The position numbers were made by a program, and so were the translations under genes. From NCBI RefSeq assembly GCF_025399835.1, contig NZ_JAODVR010000001.1, positions 3,348,001 to 3,412,000 on the forward strand: a stretch of 64,000 nucleotides of DNA, written 5' to 3'. This stretch comes from Haloarchaeobius sp. HME9146. Lineage in GTDB: Archaea; Halobacteriota; Halobacteria; Halobacteriales; Natrialbaceae. Numbering within the stretch: position 1 is the stretch's first letter; each line of letters begins with the position of its first letter. This document shows, in pieces, positions 42,172 to 50,381 of this stretch. Under the pieces are notes generated by a model, which was not told where the DNA came from, made no database searches, and worked only from the letters and a program-made list of their open reading frames with translations.

Positions 42172-45100
42172 ATGGCACGGAGTGAAGGGTCTGGCACGGA
42201 CCCTGCGGCTGACAGACGGAGTTCTTTCGACTACCGGAGCGACGAGGTAGCCGAGACACCGCTCCAGGCAACGCTCGACGACCGCATCGATGGGGAGGTG
42301 CGGTTCGACACGTACTCGCGCCAGCTGTACGCGACCGACGCCAGTATCTACGAGAAGACGCCCATCGGCGTGGTGTTCCCGCAGTCGACCGACGACGTGG
42401 CTGCCGTCGTGTCGCACTGCGCGGACGAGGGCATCCCGGTCCTCCCGCGAGGGGGCGGGACCTCGCTCGCCGGGCAGACGGTGAACGAGGCGGTCGTCCT
42501 CGACTTCTCGCGCTACATGGACGGCGTGGTGTCGGTCGACCCCGACGGGCAGACCGCCCGCGCCCAGCCCGGCGTCAAGCTCGGCCGACTGAACACGGAA
42601 CTCGCCGAGCACGACCTGAAGTTCGCGCCGGACCCGGCGTGGGGCGACAAGTCGGTGCTCGGCGGGGCCATCGGCAACAACTCGACCGGCGCACACTCGC
42701 TGAAGTACGGCAAGACCGACGCCTACGTCGAGTCCTGCGAGGTCGTCCTCGCCGACGGGACGGTCACGGAGTTCGAGGACGTCCCGGTGGACGACCTCGA
42801 CGAGTACGCCGACCCGGACGGTGACCTCGAGGAACGCATCTACGCCGAGGTCCAGCGCGTCCTCGAGGAAGAGGCCGACGAGATTCGTGAGAAGTTCCCC
42901 AAGCTGAAACGGAACGTCTCGGGGTACAACCTGAACTACCTGCTCGACCAGGCCGAGGAGGAGGGCGTCGTCAACCTCTCGAAGCTGCTGGCCGGGAGCG
43001 AGGGCACCCTCGCGGTCGTCACCGAGGCCGAGGTCTCGCTCGAACCCGTCCCGGAGACGACGGCGCTGACCATGCTGTGTTACGACGACCTCGTCGCCGC
43101 GATGGACGACCTGCCGGCCATCCTCGAACACGACGCGGCCGCGGTCGAGCTCGTCGACGACGTGTTGCTCGACCTCGCCCGCGAGCGCCCCGAGTTCGAG
43201 CAGGTCGCCGACCAGCTGCCCGCGGGGACCGAGGCGACCCTGCTCGTCGAGTTCTACGCCGACGACGAGGACCACGGCCGCGAGCAGGTTGCGGCCCTGC
43301 TCGCCGACCGCCTGGACGACTACGAGCCCGAAGGCGAGGCGACCGACGGCGGCGAGGCCGTCAGCGTCGACCAGCCCGCCCGGGCGTTCGACGCGCTGGA
43401 GGCCTACGACCCCGAGCAGATGGCGAAGATCTGGAAGCTGCGCAAGTCCGGCCTCCCGATTCTGCTCTCCCGCACGGGCGACGAGAAGCACATCGCGTTC
43501 ATCGAGGACACCGCCATCCCGCCGGAGAACCTCGGTGCCTACGTCGCCGACTTCCAGGACATCCTCGACGAGCACGACACCTTCGCCAGCTTCTACGCCC
43601 ACGCCGGCCCCGGCGTGCTCCACATCCGCCCGCTGGTGAACACGAAGTCGGTCGAGGGCGTCCAGACGATGTACGACATCGCCGACGAGGTGACCGACCT
43701 GGTGGTGAAGTACGACGGCTCTGTCTCGGGCGAACACGGTGACGGCCGTGCCCGCACCGAGTGGAACAAGAAACTGTACGGCGAGCACCTCTGGGGCGTG
43801 TTCCGCGACCTCAAGAGCGCGTTCGACCCGGACTGGCTGTTGAACCCGGGCCAGGTGTGTGGCGACGTGGACATGACCGAGAACCTGCGCTCGGGTCCCG
43901 ACTACGAGTTCGACCTCGGCTTCGACCCCGAACTCACCTGGGACAACGAGAACGGGATGCAGGGCATGGTCGAACTCTGTCACGGCTGTGGCGGCTGCCG
44001 GGGCGACCAGGACACGACCGGTGGCGTGATGTGTCCGACCTACCGCGCCTCGGGCGAGGAGATCACGGCCACCCGCGGCCGGGCGAACATGCTCCGGCAG
44101 GCGATGAGCGGTGACCTGAGCCAGGAGGAGCAGTTCTCCGACGAGTTCAAACACGAGGTACTCGACCTCTGTATCGGCTGCAAGGGCTGCAAGAACGACT
44201 GCCCCAGCGGGGTGGACCTCGCGAAGCTCAAGGTCGAGGTCGAACACGAACGCCAGCAACGCGAGGGCGTCCCCCTGCGGAACCGCCTCTTCGCGAACAT
44301 CCACGAGCTCTCGAAGCTCGGGAGCATGACCGCCCCCATCGCGAACTGGATGGCCGACTTCGGCCCCGCCCGCAAGCTCGGCGAGAAGCTGGTCGGTATC
44401 TCCGCGGACCGCACCCTCCCGACGTTCCACCGCGAGACGTTCCGTGACTGGTTCGAGTCCCGTGGTGGGTCGACGGTGCCGAAGTCGACGGCGACCCGCA
44501 CGGTCCTGCTGTTCCCCGACACCCACACCAACTTCAACGACCCCGAGTCCGGCAAGGCCGCCGTCAGGGTACTCGAAGCCGCGGGCGTCCACGTCGACGT
44601 CCCCGACCTCGGCGACACCGGCCGCCCGGCGCACTCGAAGGGCGTCCTCGACAAGGCACAGGAGGCGGCCCGCGAGAACGTCGCATCGCTCGCCCCGAAG
44701 GTCCGCAAGGGCTGGGACGTGGTGCTGGTCGAGCCCTCGAACGCGGTGATGTTCCAGTCGGACTACCTCGACCTGCTCTCGGGCGAGTCGGTCGAACAGG
44801 TCGCCGAGAACACCTACGGCGTGTGTGAGTACCTCGATTCGTTCGGTCTCGACGAGTCCATCGACTTCGTGGCCCCGGACGAGTCGCTGGCCTACCACGG
44901 CCACTGCCACCAGAAGGCGACCCAGAAGGACCACCACGCGGTGGGCGTCCTCCGCCGGGCCGGCTACGCGGTCGACCCGCTGGACTCCACCTGCTGTGGG
45001 ATGGCCGGGAGCTTCGGCTACGAGGCCGAACACCGCGGCATGACCGAGGCCATCGCGAACATCCTCTACGACCAGATAGACGCCAGCGAGGCCGAGCAGA

Positions 45101-45219
45101 TCGTCGCCCCCGGCGCGTCCTGCCGGACCCAGCTGGAGGACCGCGACACGCTGGGCGACGCGGCCGAGAGCGAGGAACCGCCGACGCCCATCCAGCTCGT
45201 CGAGCAGGCACTGGCCTGA
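42172..45219 (+). CDS. FAD/Fe-S D-2-hydroxyacid dehydrogenase (Dld/GlcD type)
   Basis: 1015-residue fusion. Residues 1-540 hold a PCMH-type FAD domain (VLPRGGGTSLAGQTVNE, GAIGNNSTGAHSLKYGKT) and the FAD-oxidase C domain (GEHGDGRARTEW). Then come ferredoxin-like clusters CHGCGGC (Cys603) and CIGCKGCKNDCP (Cys667), and finally a CCG domain (HCHQKATQ, STCCGMAGSFGYEAEH). Electrons probably pass from D-lactate or glycolate to the quinone pool. No signal peptide is apparent. The promoter lies near 42141. The exact substrate is unresolved. Confidence 0.9.
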   Translation: MARSEGSGTDPAADRRSSFDYRSDEVAETPLQATLDDRIDGEVRFDTYSRQLYATDASIYEKTPIGVVFPQSTDDVAAVVSHCADEGIPVLPRGGGTSLAGQTVNEAVVLDFSRYMDGVVSVDPDGQTARAQPGVKLGRLNTELAEHDLKFAPDPAWGDKSVLGGAIGNNSTGAHSLKYGKTDAYVESCEVVLADGTVTEFEDVPVDDLDEYADPDGDLEERIYAEVQRVLEEEADEIREKFPKLKRNVSGYNLNYLLDQAEEEGVVNLSKLLAGSEGTLAVVTEAEVSLEPVPETTALTMLCYDDLVAAMDDLPAILEHDAAAVELVDDVLLDLARERPEFEQVADQLPAGTEATLLVEFYADDEDHGREQVAALLADRLDDYEPEGEATDGGEAVSVDQPARAFDALEAYDPEQMAKIWKLRKSGLPILLSRTGDEKHIAFIEDTAIPPENLGAYVADFQDILDEHDTFASFYAHAGPGVLHIRPLVNTKSVEGVQTMYDIADEVTDLVVKYDGSVSGEHGDGRARTEWNKKLYGEHLWGVFRDLKSAFDPDWLLNPGQVCGDVDMTENLRSGPDYEFDLGFDPELTWDNENGMQGMVELCHGCGGCRGDQDTTGGVMCPTYRASGEEITATRGRANMLRQAMSGDLSQEEQFSDEFKHEVLDLCIGCKGCKNDCPSGVDLAKLKVEVEHERQQREGVPLRNRLFANIHELSKLGSMTAPIANWMADFGPARKLGEKLVGISADRTLPTFHRETFRDWFESRGGSTVPKSTATRTVLLFPDTHTNFNDPESGKAAVRVLEAAGVHVDVPDLGDTGRPAHSKGVLDKAQEAARENVASLAPKVRKGWDVVLVEPSNAVMFQSDYLDLLSGESVEQVAENTYGVCEYLDSFGLDESIDFVAPDESLAYHGHCHQKATQKDHHAVGVLRRAGYAVDPLDSTCCGMAGSFGYEAEHRGMTEAIANILYDQIDASEAEQIVAPGASCRTQLEDRDTLGDAAESEEPPTPIQLVEQALA

Positions 45220-45265: not shown

Positions 45266-45742
45266 CTACCGGTCGACGAGGAACCGGCGCAGGCTCTCGC
45301 GCGGGCTGAACCCGACACCCTCGACGACCGTGATATCGAATCCCTTCTCGTCGGCGAGGTCGGCCAGCACGTCCCGGAGCGACGCCACCTCGACCGGGGC
45401 GTGGATACGGTAGCCGTAGGGCGGTCCGTCACCGGTGTCGATGGCGAGCTTCGGCCGGCCGAAGCGCCCACCGTCGTACAGCCGGACCGACTCGATATCC
45501 TCGTAGGAGAGCGAGACGTGTCGCTCGGCATGGTCGAGGACAGCAGTGGGACCCTCGTCGGCACACCGCTGGGCCATCTCCCGGGCACGTTTCCGGTGCC
45601 CGCCCGTGACCAGCCCGAACATGGGCGTCACGGTCGCGTACTCGCCGATCTCCACCGAGTCGTCGGTGAACAGCACGTCGGCGATTCGCAGCGGCGTCGT
45701 GCCGGCCATGCAGTGGTGGACGTGGACGTGGACGGTGGTCAT
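45266..45742 (-). CDS. His-rich N-terminal protein of the Nramp-like operon
   Basis: 158 residues, starting MTTVHVHVHHCMAG, a run of four His and a Cys in the first twelve residues that could bind metal. The rest is soluble, alpha/beta, with no family I recognise; a conserved-looking GFGRPKLAIDTGDGPPYGYRI-type segment (RFGRPKLAIDTGDGPP) follows. It overlaps the gene upstream by 4 bp (ATGA type), so it is the third, translationally coupled gene of the Nramp-like operon. A metallochaperone or sensor role is inference. Confidence 0.75.
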   Translation of the reverse strand: MTTVHVHVHHCMAGTTPLRIADVLFTDDSVEIGEYATVTPMFGLVTGGHRKRAREMAQRCADEGPTAVLDHAERHVSLSYEDIESVRLYDGGRFGRPKLAIDTGDGPPYGYRIHAPVEVASLRDVLADLADEKGFDITVVEGVGFSPRESLRRFLVDR

Positions 45743-46106: not shown

Positions 46107-47858
46107 TCACGAGAACAGCCCGTCCGCCTCCCCGGCGTTCTCGACGGTCTCCTCGGCGCGCCACTTCGCCTTGGCCGACGCCGACATCACGTACACCTGG
46201 GTGATGGCGAGCACGACGAACAGCGCCAGCCCGCCGGGGGCACTGCCGGTCACGCCGATGGTCACCCGGAACACCGAGAGGCCGAGCAACTGCTCGAAGG
46301 TGTTGCCCACGAGCAGCACCGAGAAGTACCCGAAGAAGGCGGTCGCCCACCACATCGCGATGATGCGCGGCCAGCCCGGCTGGGTGTGTTCGGGCAGTCG
46401 CCGGGTGTTGATGAGCAGCGTGAGCGCGGTGTACGGCCACATCATCGCCCCGGACATCGCAGCCGCCGTCAGCAGCAGGCCGAACGGCTGTTCGATGGGG
46501 ATCGGGAGCGTGAGGATGAGGATGCCCCAGCCGGCGAACGCGGTGAGCAGGTACCAGAAGATGCGCGGGAGGCTCCAGCCGCGTTCCCGACCGACCGACT
46601 CGTAGATGACGTCGGCGCTGTTGCGGACGACGGACTCCACGATGGCGTACTCCGTCGTGAACAGGGCGAGGAAGAGGACGCCGTACAGGAGCGCCCCCGC
46701 CAGCGGTGGGAGGTTCGGTGCGACACCGGTGAGCCACATCTCCACGCCGCCGGCGTCCGTCGCCGTCACGTAGGTCGCCGCGATGGCCATCATCGCCGTC
46801 GCGGTCACCAGCACGCCGAGGACGAACGTCACGAGGTGTTCGAGTTGGGCGAGTCGCCACCAGCCGCGCCACCGGCGCATGTTCTCGACGGTCGCCTCGA
46901 AGGAGAAGCCGTCGCGGTGGATTATTTCCGGTTCGTCGCCGACGATGGGGTTGAGCACGCGGCCCTGGTAGCGGCCCATACCGTACCCCTTCTCGCGGAC
47001 CCACAGCGACTGGGAGAGGTTGAGATAGCCGCCTGCGCCCGCGTACGCGAGGCCGCCGAGGAACACCGCGACGTCCTCGTCGGCCGGGAGCGTCCCGATG
47101 CTCACCGCGCCGAGCGGGATGTTCGTGAGTTCGCCCGGGTCGCCGACCAGGACGAACAGGCCCATCGCGCACAGGACCGACGAGGCGACGAGGACCGCGG
47201 TGACGCGTTCGACCACGTTGTACATCAGCGGTGTGAGCTGGTAGGAGCCCCAGATGAGCAGCATCAACAGGATGCCGTAGGCCTTCCAGCCGAGGAAGTC
47301 GTAGCCGAACAGCGTGAACGTGGATTCGATACCGAGGCCGGTCGCCCCGACCTTCGCGGCCGTCGCCGCCCACCCCGGCCAGCCGAAGCTGACGAACCCG
47401 AGTATCAGGAAGAGGATGGGCCAGCCCCGGTGGACGCGCTCGAACGCCCGGAAGATACTCTCGCCGGTCGCGAGCGTCCAGCGCTGTATCTCGGTGTTGA
47501 TGACGAAGTGCGTGAGGACGCCGACCCAGAACGCCCAGTAGATGCTCCAGCCGTTCTGGGCGACGAGCAGGGGCCAGAAGATGGTCTCCCCGCTCCCGAG
47601 CGAGGCCCCGAGCATGATGGCACTCGGGCCGAGGACGTGGGTCAGCTTCGGGACGCGAGGCAGGTCCACGAGCCGATACGAGTCGCCCTCACCCGGGTCC
47701 GGGTGTTCCTCGTCTTCGGGGGCGACCTCGAGATTGTCGTACGCGGTCGGGGCGTACGCGGAGGCCCGGTACTCGCGGCCCTCCTCCGGCGATGCGTACA
47801 CCTCCGGCTCCTCGTCGACGGCCGCATCTACAGCCTCTTGCTCACGTTCCATCGCCAT
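46107..47858 (-). CDS. Nramp-related transporter, divergent
   Basis: 583 residues. A 65-residue acidic cytoplasmic tail is followed by 11-12 membrane helices. The fold is recognisable from helix 1 (LGPSAIMLGASLGSGETIFWP), ..NTEIQRWTLATGESIF and EYAIVESVVR, which match Nramp family positions. However the helix-1 DPGN motif reads LGSGE and the helix-6 MPH motif reads AYAGAGG, so the usual Mn/Fe-binding residues are missing. Substrate is unknown, perhaps not a transition metal. It leads an operon with a membrane protein and a His-rich protein. Start at ATG 47858 or 47852. Confidence 0.85.
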   Translation of the reverse strand: MAMEREQEAVDAAVDEEPEVYASPEEGREYRASAYAPTAYDNLEVAPEDEEHPDPGEGDSYRLVDLPRVPKLTHVLGPSAIMLGASLGSGETIFWPLLVAQNGWSIYWAFWVGVLTHFVINTEIQRWTLATGESIFRAFERVHRGWPILFLILGFVSFGWPGWAATAAKVGATGLGIESTFTLFGYDFLGWKAYGILLMLLIWGSYQLTPLMYNVVERVTAVLVASSVLCAMGLFVLVGDPGELTNIPLGAVSIGTLPADEDVAVFLGGLAYAGAGGYLNLSQSLWVREKGYGMGRYQGRVLNPIVGDEPEIIHRDGFSFEATVENMRRWRGWWRLAQLEHLVTFVLGVLVTATAMMAIAATYVTATDAGGVEMWLTGVAPNLPPLAGALLYGVLFLALFTTEYAIVESVVRNSADVIYESVGRERGWSLPRIFWYLLTAFAGWGILILTLPIPIEQPFGLLLTAAAMSGAMMWPYTALTLLINTRRLPEHTQPGWPRIIAMWWATAFFGYFSVLLVGNTFEQLLGLSVFRVTIGVTGSAPGGLALFVVLAITQVYVMSASAKAKWRAEETVENAGEADGLFS

Positions 47859-47923: not shown

Positions 47924-47939
47924 ATCCAGTAGACTGGAT
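47924..47939. promoter_or_regulatory. Palindrome near the expected Nramp-operon start site
   Basis: ATCCAGT-AG-ACTGGAT, perfect 7-bp arms. With the TATA at 47948-47956 on the minus strand, transcription should begin near 47925, within this palindrome. Placement suits a repressor that blocks the start site. Confidence 0.5.
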
Positions 47940-47940
47940 G

Positions 47941-47965
47941 CCGACGGTTTATATCTATCCGTCGG
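47941..47965 (-). promoter_or_regulatory. TATA element enclosed by inverted repeats (Nramp operon)
   Basis: CCGACGG and CCGTCGG, perfect 7-bp arms, flank the AT-rich centre TTTATATCTAT that holds the minus-strand TATA (ATATAAA). The leader to the ATG at 47858 is about 65 nt, longer than for most genes here. Confidence 0.5.
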
Positions 47966-48003: not shown

Positions 48004-48642
48004 TCATCCCCCGAGGAAGTGCCAGATGTGCCCGCGCTCTTCCGGCGGGTCGACGCCCGGAAGTTGCTTGAGCGCCGGCTGGATGGCGTTCCACCAGCCG
48101 TCCGCGGTCTGGAACTCGGCCGGGTGTTCGGGGAAGACGTCCTGGAGGAAATCGCCCTTCTTCGCGCTCGGGTTCTCCGTGAGATAGTCGTAGGCGGCCA
48201 GCACCGCGTCCTGTCGTGCCTTCGCGGTGCTCCCCGTTCCGGGAATGTCGACGTCCTCGACCGCGCGCTGGACCGCTGGGGGGTACTCCGCCAGCGGGTC
48301 GTCGGCGGCGGGCTGTTCCGCTATAGAGTCTTGTCCGCGTGCACGCGTGCTCGTTTCGAGGGGCTCGTCGACAGCGTCGACCCGAAGCGGCCGCCACCAG
48401 ACCCGCCCCCGTGCACCGACCTTTCGCGTTTCGAGGTCGCCGCGCTCGACGAGTTCGTTGAGCTTGTTGTGGACGGTCCGGCGCGAGCAGTCCAGCTCTT
48501 CGAGTACGTCGCTCGCCGTGAGCGGGCGCGCCCGATCGTCCTGTTCCTCGAACACGTCGAGTGCGGCTTCGAGCGGGATGCGGTCGGAGAACTGGCCGTC
48601 GTCGTTCCGGTCCCGCTCCCGCGCGCCACCCTCGGATGCCAT
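48004..48642 (-). CDS. Winged-helix regulator next to the operator array
   Basis: 212 residues. The N-terminal half contains a winged-helix domain (PLTASDVLEELDCSRRTVHNKLNELVERGDLETRKVGARGRVWW). The C-terminal half, after a flexible acidic link, holds a helical segment (KARQDAVLAAYDYLTENPSAKKGDFLQDVFPEH) with the C-terminal HIWHFLGG. Family not certain. A TATA-like CTTATACG on the minus strand at 48665-48672 lies 27 bp upstream; the first of the six palindromic sites abuts it. Likely self-regulating. Sits upstream of the Nramp-like operon on the same strand. Confidence 0.85.
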   Translation of the reverse strand: MASEGGARERDRNDDGQFSDRIPLEAALDVFEEQDDRARPLTASDVLEELDCSRRTVHNKLNELVERGDLETRKVGARGRVWWRPLRVDAVDEPLETSTRARGQDSIAEQPAADDPLAEYPPAVQRAVEDVDIPGTGSTAKARQDAVLAAYDYLTENPSAKKGDFLQDVFPEHPAEFQTADGWWNAIQPALKQLPGVDPPEERGHIWHFLGG

Positions 48643-48664: not shown

Positions 48665-48672
48665 CGTATAAG
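48665..48672 (-). promoter_or_regulatory. TATA-like box of the winged-helix regulator gene
   Basis: CTTATACG on the minus strand, 27 bp before the ATG at 48642, with operator-like site 1 starting 5 bp further upstream, at the BRE position. Confidence 0.5.
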
Positions 48673-48676
48673 CCTT

Positions 48677-48861
48677 TACACACGAGTGAACTACCGTTGC
48701 AGTCGTGTGAAGCCGCCGTTACATACGTGTGAGTTCGACTCATGGTACCAGTGCACACGACTAAACGGTGCGTTTTCCATCCGGTCAGCCACGGTGATAA
48801 CCGACAAAATCGCAGTACGTGACCGTTTCAGTCGTGTGAACATTCGATTCAGTCGACTGAA
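48677..48861. repeat. Array of six palindromic operator-like sites
   Basis: Sites fit TNCA-N2-CG-N2-T(G/A)A: 48677-48690 (TACACACGAGTGAA), 48698-48711 (TGCAGTCGTGTGAA), 48720-48733 (TACATACGTGTGAG), 48752-48765 (TGCACACGACTAAA), 48827-48840 (TTCAGTCGTGTGAA), 48848-48861 (TTCAGTCGACTGAA, a perfect palindrome). Start-to-start distances are 21, 22, 32, 75 and 21 bp, close to multiples of the helical repeat. A dimeric regulator, perhaps the adjacent winged-helix protein, could bind all on one face. Confidence 0.65.
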
Positions 48862-49002
48862 TCCTCCGTCGAGCTCCTGGCGTCGCGTGCGAAGGACCAG
48901 AGTAATGGTCACAGAACAGACCAACCGAGCGACAGAGACACACAGAACAGCCATTTCAAGGCCCGAAACGCAAGAATAACGCCGTCTACCCCACACCTTA
49001 AA

Positions 49003-49020
49003 TAGTAATAACAATTACTA
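49003..49020. promoter_or_regulatory. Inverted repeat upstream of the livK promoter
   Basis: TAGTAAT-AACA-ATTACTA, perfect 7-bp arms, ending 13 bp before the TATA TTTATA. A binding site there could compete with or recruit TFB. Its AT-rich sequence stands out in this GC-rich region. Confidence 0.5.
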
Positions 49021-49033
49021 CTTGGGAAACCTA

Positions 49034-49039
49034 TTTATA
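49034..49039 (+). promoter_or_regulatory. TATA box of the livK operon
   Basis: TTTATA in CCTATTTATACC, 23-28 bp before the ATG at 49062; a strong, near-consensus haloarchaeal promoter. Confidence 0.6.
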
Positions 49040-49061: not shown

Positions 49062-50381
49062 ATGCCAGAAGACGGCAACAACAGTGGTAGCACGGTGCAC
49101 AGACGGCGGTACCTGCAGGCACTCGGTACCGGGGCAGTCGCAGCGTTCGCTGGCTGTGCGGACACGAGCGATCCCGACACCAGCGGCGGTGGTGGTGGGA
49201 ACGGTAACAACGGCGGCACGCAGGGTGGCACGCAGTCCAGTGGGGAGGACATGTCGTTCAAGGTGGGTGTGATCACCTCGCAGTCCGGCTCGTACTCCTT
49301 CCTCGGGCAGGGCGAAGTACAGGGCGCGAAGCTCGCGAAGGCCGACCTCGAAGACGAGTTCGGCGTCGACATCGAGCTCGTCACGGCGGACACCGAGACC
49401 GACCCAGGGACCGGTCTCGAACGCATGAAGCGCCTCGTCAACGAGGACCAGGTCGACTTCACGCTCGGTGGGGTCTCCTCCTCGGTCGCCATCAAGATGG
49501 GTAACTGGGCGTCGGACAACGGCGTCGCGTACATGGCAGCCGGGTCGCACTCCGACGCGACGACGGGTGGCAAGTGCGCCTCGAACATGTTCCGCCCGAC
49601 GTGTTCGAACTCCATGCTGGCGAACGCGCTCGGCACCCAGATGGCGGACTACGCCGACTCGTGGTTCGTCATGTTCGCGGACTACACGTGGGGCCAGACC
49701 GGTGCGAAGGCCATCAAGAACGCCCTGAAGGCCAACGGGGCGACCATCGAGGGCGAGGTCGGCACGCCGTTCCCCTCGCAGGACTACACGCAGTACCTCA
49801 ACGAGGCGGCGAACTCCGGCGCGGACGGCCTCGCGGTCGTCATCGCCGGGACCGACCAGCGCATCGTCACCAAACAGTTCCTCAACAAGGGCATGGACGA
49901 GGACATGAAGATGGCCGGGCCGCTGTTCGAGGAGTCCGTCTTCTGGGGCATCGGGAAGGAGGCCGCCTCGGCCGCCGGCCTGTGGGCCACGCCGTGGGCC
50001 GCGTCCTCACCGACGACCGACCTCGGCGAGAGCGTGAAGCAGCGCATCGCCAGCGAGTTCGGCGCGTCGCCGTTCTCCCGGCACTTCATGGGCTACACCT
50101 CGATGGACCAGCTCACCCGCGCGGCCATCCGCGCCGGCTCGAAGGACGCCGCCGACATCCGTGGCGCACTCGAGGGCCACGAACTCGAGCACAAGCTCAA
50201 GCAGGGCAAGATGTACTTCCGGGCCGACGACCACCAGCTCATCCAGCCGGTGTCGACGGTCCAGGCCAGGGAGCAGTCCGAGATGCAGGACGACCCCTAC
50301 AAGAGCTGGTTCAAGCACACGAGCAAGACGCCCGGTGACGAGGTCGCCCGCGAGCCCAGCGAGACGGGCTGCAGCCTGTAG
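49062..50381 (+). CDS. livK: ABC transporter substrate-binding lipoprotein (LivK/amide type)
   Basis: 439 residues. Tat lipoprotein signal: HRRRYLQALGTGAVAAFAGC with the lipobox Cys, then a long Gly/Asn/Ser linker (residues 40-65). The mature domain is a type 1 periplasmic-binding fold: FKVGVITSQSGSYSFLGQGEVQGAKLA, LGGVSSSVAIKMGN, FADYTWGQTGAKAIKNALKANG, MDQLTRAAIRAGSKDA. Membrane-anchored by lipid on the outside. Substrate could be branched-chain amino acids, urea or amides; no urease genes are near. First gene of the liv operon. Confidence 0.92.
   Translation: MPEDGNNSGSTVHRRRYLQALGTGAVAAFAGCADTSDPDTSGGGGGNGNNGGTQGGTQSSGEDMSFKVGVITSQSGSYSFLGQGEVQGAKLAKADLEDEFGVDIELVTADTETDPGTGLERMKRLVNEDQVDFTLGGVSSSVAIKMGNWASDNGVAYMAAGSHSDATTGGKCASNMFRPTCSNSMLANALGTQMADYADSWFVMFADYTWGQTGAKAIKNALKANGATIEGEVGTPFPSQDYTQYLNEAANSGADGLAVVIAGTDQRIVTKQFLNKGMDEDMKMAGPLFEESVFWGIGKEAASAAGLWATPWAASSPTTDLGESVKQRIASEFGASPFSRHFMGYTSMDQLTRAAIRAGSKDAADIRGALEGHELEHKLKQGKMYFRADDHQLIQPVSTVQAREQSEMQDDPYKSWFKHTSKTPGDEVAREPSETGCSL

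Follow-up and report, generated by a model that had tools for sequence, protein, structure and literature searches.

A spaced palindrome array beside a winged-helix gene of Haloarchaeobius sp. HME9146 is very probably the switch of a lactate-use regulon

The stretch of Haloarchaeobius sp. HME9146 DNA that was analysed (64,000 nucleotides, referred to as the window) contains six palindromic sites at 48677-48861, next to a gene encoding a 212-aa winged-helix protein. The sites start at 48677, 48698, 48720, 48752, 48827 and 48848, with start-to-start spacings of 21, 22, 32, 75 and 21 bp; the original prediction had given these positions and spacings, and all six sites are present. Comparison of the six led to a refined motif, the palindrome TNCANWCGWNTGNA, which is 14 bp long and whose central CG is almost invariant. 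It is matched perfectly by four of the sites and with one mismatch by two. The sites, the regulator gene and its promoter are the following.

48004-48642, minus strand: regulator gene, 212 aa, with a winged HTH at the N terminus and, as predicted, a second domain of winged-helix-like type at the C terminus
48666-48677, minus strand: core promoter of the regulator gene, TATA TTATAC at 48666-48671 and BRE AAAGG at 48673-48677; the ATG is at 48642
48677-48690, no strand: site 1, TACACACGAGTGAA; abuts the regulator BRE; identical in the sister species G003
48698-48711, no strand: site 2, TGCAGTCGTGTGAA; unchanged in G003
48720-48733, no strand: site 3, TACATACGTGTGAG; one mismatch to the refined motif; diverged in sequence in G003, still a site
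48752-48765, no strand: site 4, TGCACACGACTAAA; one mismatch; the weakest of the six, doubtful; lost in G003
48827-48840, no strand: site 5, TTCAGTCGTGTGAA; first of the distal pair; different in sequence in G003, still a site
48846-48863, no strand: site 6, GATTCAGTCGACTGAATC, with its core at 48848-48861; different in sequence in G003, still a site

Sites 1, 2, 3, 5 and 6 are kept in G003, and site 4 is not. Site 6 had been described as a perfect palindrome, and its symmetry extends to 18 bp. The proposed contact of site 1 with the regulator promoter is also found, the BRE abutting the site. The promoter stretch AAAGGCTTATAC, which holds the TATA and BRE, is kept in relatives and unchanged in G003. 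The TATA is located only about 27 bp before the ATG, and the regulator transcript is therefore probably leaderless.

The genome-wide scan suggested by the original prediction gave two different outcomes. The earlier consensus, TNCANNCGNNTRA, shows no excess in the genome (116 matches against 154 for its reversed control); it was too loose and was replaced by the 14-bp palindrome. Inside the window it has 9 matches against 1.9 expected in shuffles, none of which reached 9. The refined palindrome is rare: the own genome, which comprises 4.19 Mb on three contigs, has 14 occurrences against 4 for the reversed-pattern control. Seven of the 14 fall in two arrays, that of the window and one upstream of the genes lctP-lutC-lutB. 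The other seven are single matches (C1:437210, 793105 and 2512295; C2:256606, 256726, 454569 and 670043), which are near chance level and are treated as mostly chance because the control density predicts about four. One single perfect site (L229 3070-3083, G000:C2:454569-454582) lies directly upstream of a UspA-type gene with an acetyl-CoA-synthetase-like gene in its neighbourhood; it is possibly a further target or a chance match. At the control density of the genome, six places within 185 bp correspond to a Poisson P of about 1e-16, a value obtained with a pattern that was fitted to these very sites, and the weight is therefore carried by the independent tests in other genomes.

The second array of the own genome consists of three sites at G000:C1:431174-431231, with spacings of 21 and 23. 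It precedes the L-lactate permease gene lctP (Pfam Lactate_perm, E 2e-55), which is followed by lutC and then by a LUD/4Fe-4S lutB-type gene. The three genes represent an L-lactate permease and an LUD-type L-lactate dehydrogenase. The link to lactate was absent from the earlier reading and comes from this array, together with the finding that lctP usually occupies, in other genomes, the place held by the liv transporter genes in the window.

In 392 Halobacteriales genomes, a blind search was made for pairs of palindromes at a distance of exactly 21 bp, one mismatch at most being allowed. It returned 24 places in 19 genomes, and the reversed control returned none. Every one of the 24 places adjoins an orthologue of the regulator gene, lctP/lutC/lutB, or both. 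The regulator is present in 70 of the 392 genomes (E<=1e-25), including all 19 with two-site places; the hypergeometric P for this co-occurrence is 6e-16 by genome and 8e-7 by genus, values that are optimistic owing to shared ancestry. The original prediction had also proposed comparing the spacer in relatives, and the sites proved to be conserved in the orthologous spacers. The 500 bp upstream of 57 protein-selected regulator loci contain 105 sites against 1 for the reversed pattern, and 60 against 1 were counted in the 400 bp ahead of 27 regulator loci of another set, which shares some loci with the first; the genomes are related, and the independence of these counts is therefore incomplete. 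At 3 of the 27 loci and at about 10 of the 57, there is no site with one mismatch or fewer.

A different DNA-binding protein could own the array and control the lactate genes, the 212-aa gene being merely one of its targets. The lctP/lut sites of the own genome lie far from the regulator gene, and position alone does not name the binder. However, the arrays occur only in genomes that carry the regulator (19 of 19). A Lactate_perm search of 20 regulator-less genomes gave matches in 11, and none of the 11 lctP-matching loci (10 genomes; two of the loci fragmentary) has a promoter-proximal site. Within 1.5 kb upstream, ten of these loci are free of sites; the eleventh has an isolated match, with one mismatch, at a distance of 991 bp. 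The sites therefore accompany the regulator rather than lctP itself. The 212-aa protein is also the sole recognised DNA-binding protein conserved in the cluster, and autoregulation is the usual pattern, all of which makes a different binder improbable. The array probably comprises operators of the adjacent 212-aa regulator, which would control the genes for lactate uptake and oxidation as well as its own gene. The original prediction had likewise tied the array to this gene, and this tie is supported by the rarity of the motif elsewhere and by its retention in orthologous spacers. Such sites recur in many related species, about two DNA turns apart, before the same regulator gene and before genes of lactate uptake and oxidation, which makes it very probable that the array switches a lactate-use regulon not described so far.

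The following features of the window bear on the extent of this putative regulon.

42172-45219, plus strand: FAD/4Fe-4S oxidase gene of the GlcD/DLD type (Pfam FAD-oxidase_C, FAD_binding_4, Fer4, CCG)
45266-45742, minus strand: 158-aa gene with no assigned function and no Pfam match, often in the same cluster (synteny)
46107-47858, minus strand: Nramp-family transporter gene (NCBIfam NF037982), downstream of the regulator gene; a possible regulon member from synteny
47925-47938, no strand: TCCAGTAGACTGGA, a weak seventh site immediately downstream of the TATA of the Nramp-like gene (47948-47955)
49062-50381, plus strand: gene for the substrate-binding protein of a liv-type ABC transporter (Pfam Peripla_BP_6), divergent from the regulator gene

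The conserved neighbours of the regulator orthologues are lctP, lutC/lutB, the gene for a GlcD/DLD-type oxidase and the Nramp-like gene. The GlcD/DLD-type oxidase of the window is a probable lactate dehydrogenase. A homologue of it is located in the lctP cluster of relatives, and no palindromic site was found upstream of the window gene. The Nramp-like gene has no Pfam match and a strong NCBIfam Nramp_1 match. The seventh site in front of it has a mismatch in the CG centre and is more degenerate in G003. The position of the Nramp-like gene beside the regulator is tightly conserved in many genera, with no obvious link to lactate; one guess is that its product supplies metal to Fe-S lactate dehydrogenases.

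The original prediction regarded the array as a cooperative operator, possibly for both the regulator and the liv transporter. Its regulator part stands and cooperativity is plausible, but control of liv is weakly supported or unsupported. An operator serving the regulator and the divergent liv transporter, with the lactate genes secondary, would account for the position of sites 5 and 6 on the liv side and for the divergent liv genes of the own genome (G000), G003 and a MAG locus (L181). These three are the only places where liv was found beside the regulator; at nearly all remaining orthologues the neighbours are lctP, lut or Nramp genes instead, and in most relatives lctP holds the array-side place that the liv-type ABC operon fills in the window. 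The liv TATA (49032-49039) is furthermore about 170 bp away from site 6. A regulator-liv operator of this kind thus has little probability, and the liv transporter is a weakly supported candidate target of the lactate-use regulon. Since liv adjoins the regulator also in G003 and L181, the regulon may have acquired it in the window's lineage. At 49004-49019, just upstream of the liv TATA, there is an inverted repeat distinct from the array sites, AGTAAT-AACA-ATTACT, which is only partly conserved in G003; liv may be under its own separate regulator.

That the sites are chance or structural repeats (cruciforms or hairpins) might be thought of, since they are short palindromes and one is perfect over 18 bp, yet reversed-pattern controls of 0-1 against counts of 24-105, the conservation of sequence and spacing over many genera, and an operator-like variation of the sites within one consensus make this scarcely credible.

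The claim that all sites lie on one face of the DNA holds in part. Phasing within the window array at 10.5 bp per turn is modest (R 0.74, chance 0.03), and 10.7 bp fits better (R 0.99), the best helical fit being near 10.7 or above. The 21/22-bp steps recur in relatives: among protein-selected, non-identical loci, 35 of 57 adjacent spacings are 20-23 bp, with others at 41-43, 65-66 and 88-89 bp. The long spacings taken alone show no significant helical phasing at 10.5 bp (p 0.12). The fixed 21/22-bp step is the strong fact and the phasing of the long gaps is weak evidence. Given the regular steps, cooperative binding of predicted dimers to the same face is plausible.

The regulator gives sub-threshold HTH matches only in Pfam, and no ligand-binding domain is recognisable. 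In an AlphaFold2 model the N-terminal winged helix is confident and matches winged-helix DNA-binding domains, the closest solved folds having a Z of about 10. The C-terminal domain, which has no clear Pfam match, was modelled alone (pLDDT 85, pTM 0.76) and has the order H-S-H-H-S-S, as in a winged helix. Cullin winged-helix domains match it best, at a Z of about 8, which may indicate no more than a shared arrangement. The absence of a close PDB match is not counted as evidence of a new fold. The C-terminal domain was also observed in a paralogue of roughly 200 aa and in a widespread haloarchaeal family whose members have about 300-430 aa and another N-terminal region (L225 659-1546; L226 488-1480; L083 6152-6709).

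The protein does not fall into the Lrp/AsnC, IclR or TrmB family or among the GntR-type lactate regulators. Members of the Lrp/AsnC family combine an Lrp-type HTH with a C-terminal RAM/AsnC domain, and no AsnC or Lrp Pfam match was found in 31 orthologues. For the IclR family, HTH_IclR scored 17 bits against a cut-off of 22, and for the TrmB family the HTH scored 17.8 against 25.6 bits; the effector domain of either family is absent. The GntR-type proteins LutR and LldR carry a GntR HTH and an FCD domain, and the regulator matches neither; a HutC match that covers its HTH is below threshold. The HVO_A0261_N domain is matched by 29 of 31 family members, the window protein scoring 22.4 against the gathering score of 35 bits. 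In functional terms, sites are conserved both in the promoter of the regulator gene and at genes of the pathway, which makes the protein a candidate autoregulated catabolic regulator with tandem operators.

We propose that one regulator dimer would bind each 14-bp palindrome through the N-terminal winged helix. Dimers placed every 21-22 bp, that is every two turns, would come to lie on one DNA face and probably bind cooperatively, perhaps through contacts of the C-terminal winged-helix-like domains. The proposed targets are the lctP permease gene, the lutC/lutB L-lactate dehydrogenase genes and the regulator's own gene, and probably those of the GlcD/DLD-type oxidase and the Nramp-like transporter. 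BRE/TATA is flanked by sites in many regulator orthologues; Haloferax-type loci have a site on each side of the regulator TATA, the downstream one near the start codon. Because of this flanking, negative autoregulation is proposed, in which sites adjoining BRE/TATA, and in many relatives also covering the start site, would block the access of TBP/TFB. The lctP and lut arrays lie roughly 75-235 bp upstream of the core promoter, a distance that suits neither classical archaeal repression nor activation well. As these arrays are well upstream, activation, or derepression through an upstream assembly, is more likely at lctP/lut, and the signal would be lactate or a lactate-derived compound. A more specific form of the model is unlikely: a cooperative one-faced protein filament, one dimer per two helical turns and bridged by the C-terminal domain, that represses its own promoter and acts on lctP from roughly 75-235 bp upstream in an enhancer-like or looping manner. 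Such a mode of control is unusual in archaea.

The haloarchaeal TrmB, IclR-type and GlpR-type proteins are winged-helix regulators of carbon use that act on short palindromes near BRE/TATA. The window regulator differs from them in having weak, sub-threshold HTH similarity only, and their effector domains were not detected in it. In bacteria, LldR-type regulators control lactate genes locally; they and LutR are GntR-family proteins, whereas the haloarchaeal protein shows no GntR match and is predicted to have two winged-helix domains. LutR of Bacillus subtilis exerts local control of lut/lctP-type lactate genes (PMC11734750). Ss-LrpB of Sulfolobus solfataricus is an autoregulator whose dimers occupy regularly spaced 15-bp palindromes in its own control region, three of them cooperatively, and it also acts on neighbouring permease and pyruvate-oxidoreductase genes (PMC4046817). 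As an archaeal autoregulator with tandem spaced palindromes, it appears functionally similar to the predicted lactate regulator, but it belongs to the Lrp family, of which the window regulator shows no Lrp/AsnC match, and differs in ligand domain, motif and target pathway.

In Haloferax volcanii, passages of PMC8305020 and PMC7714728 report LudBC (HVO_1692/1693) and the lctP-DLD operon HVO_1696-HVO_1697, which are the same target genes as in the predicted regulon, and these passages describe no regulator or operator for them. In an endA knock-down, lctP was the most up-regulated gene (log2 7.0; PMC7714728); switching of this size fits a tightly controlled gene and does not identify its regulator. 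HVO_1695 is listed as a putative iron-sulfur protein (PMC11349517). The openly licensed full texts searched yielded no haloarchaeal lactate regulator, no matching box and no regulator role for HVO_1694/1695. As far as found, the precise motif, the testable regulon and a regulator family with no prior tie to a function thus appear to be new. They provide haloarchaeal lactate use with named targets, a precise 14-bp operator and a candidate regulator, and suggest a function for the family of two-winged-helix proteins. Cooperative assembly on archaeal promoters could be studied cleanly with a one-face array of fixed 21/22-bp steps, which is present in many species that can be cultured (Haloferax, Haloarcula, Natronorubrum, Halobellus); among Haloferax, H. 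gibbonsii and H. denitrificans are examples that have the regulator.

Further conserved elements were observed upstream of the lactate genes. The lctP mRNAs appear to start at a conserved ATGCCA that follows the TATA at about 30 bp and precedes the lctP start codon by 60-130 nt (for example in L077 6660-6752, in L082 5900-6000 and upstream of lctP in L189). Of 56 thinned loci, 12 have ATGCC followed within 30 nt by GGCAT (0.1 expected from shuffles), with spacers of 6, 11 or 16 nt. This element could be a 5' hairpin or encode a short leader peptide (MPDxIPHGI...); Rfam gave no match in the lactate loci, the lctP 5' element included. Ahead of the lutC start codons (L100-L103, L078), where no clear TATA was seen, a conserved string GAACA..ACAGTGAAATRGGCRC...GTAGCATC is found, which is a possible leader or promoter element.
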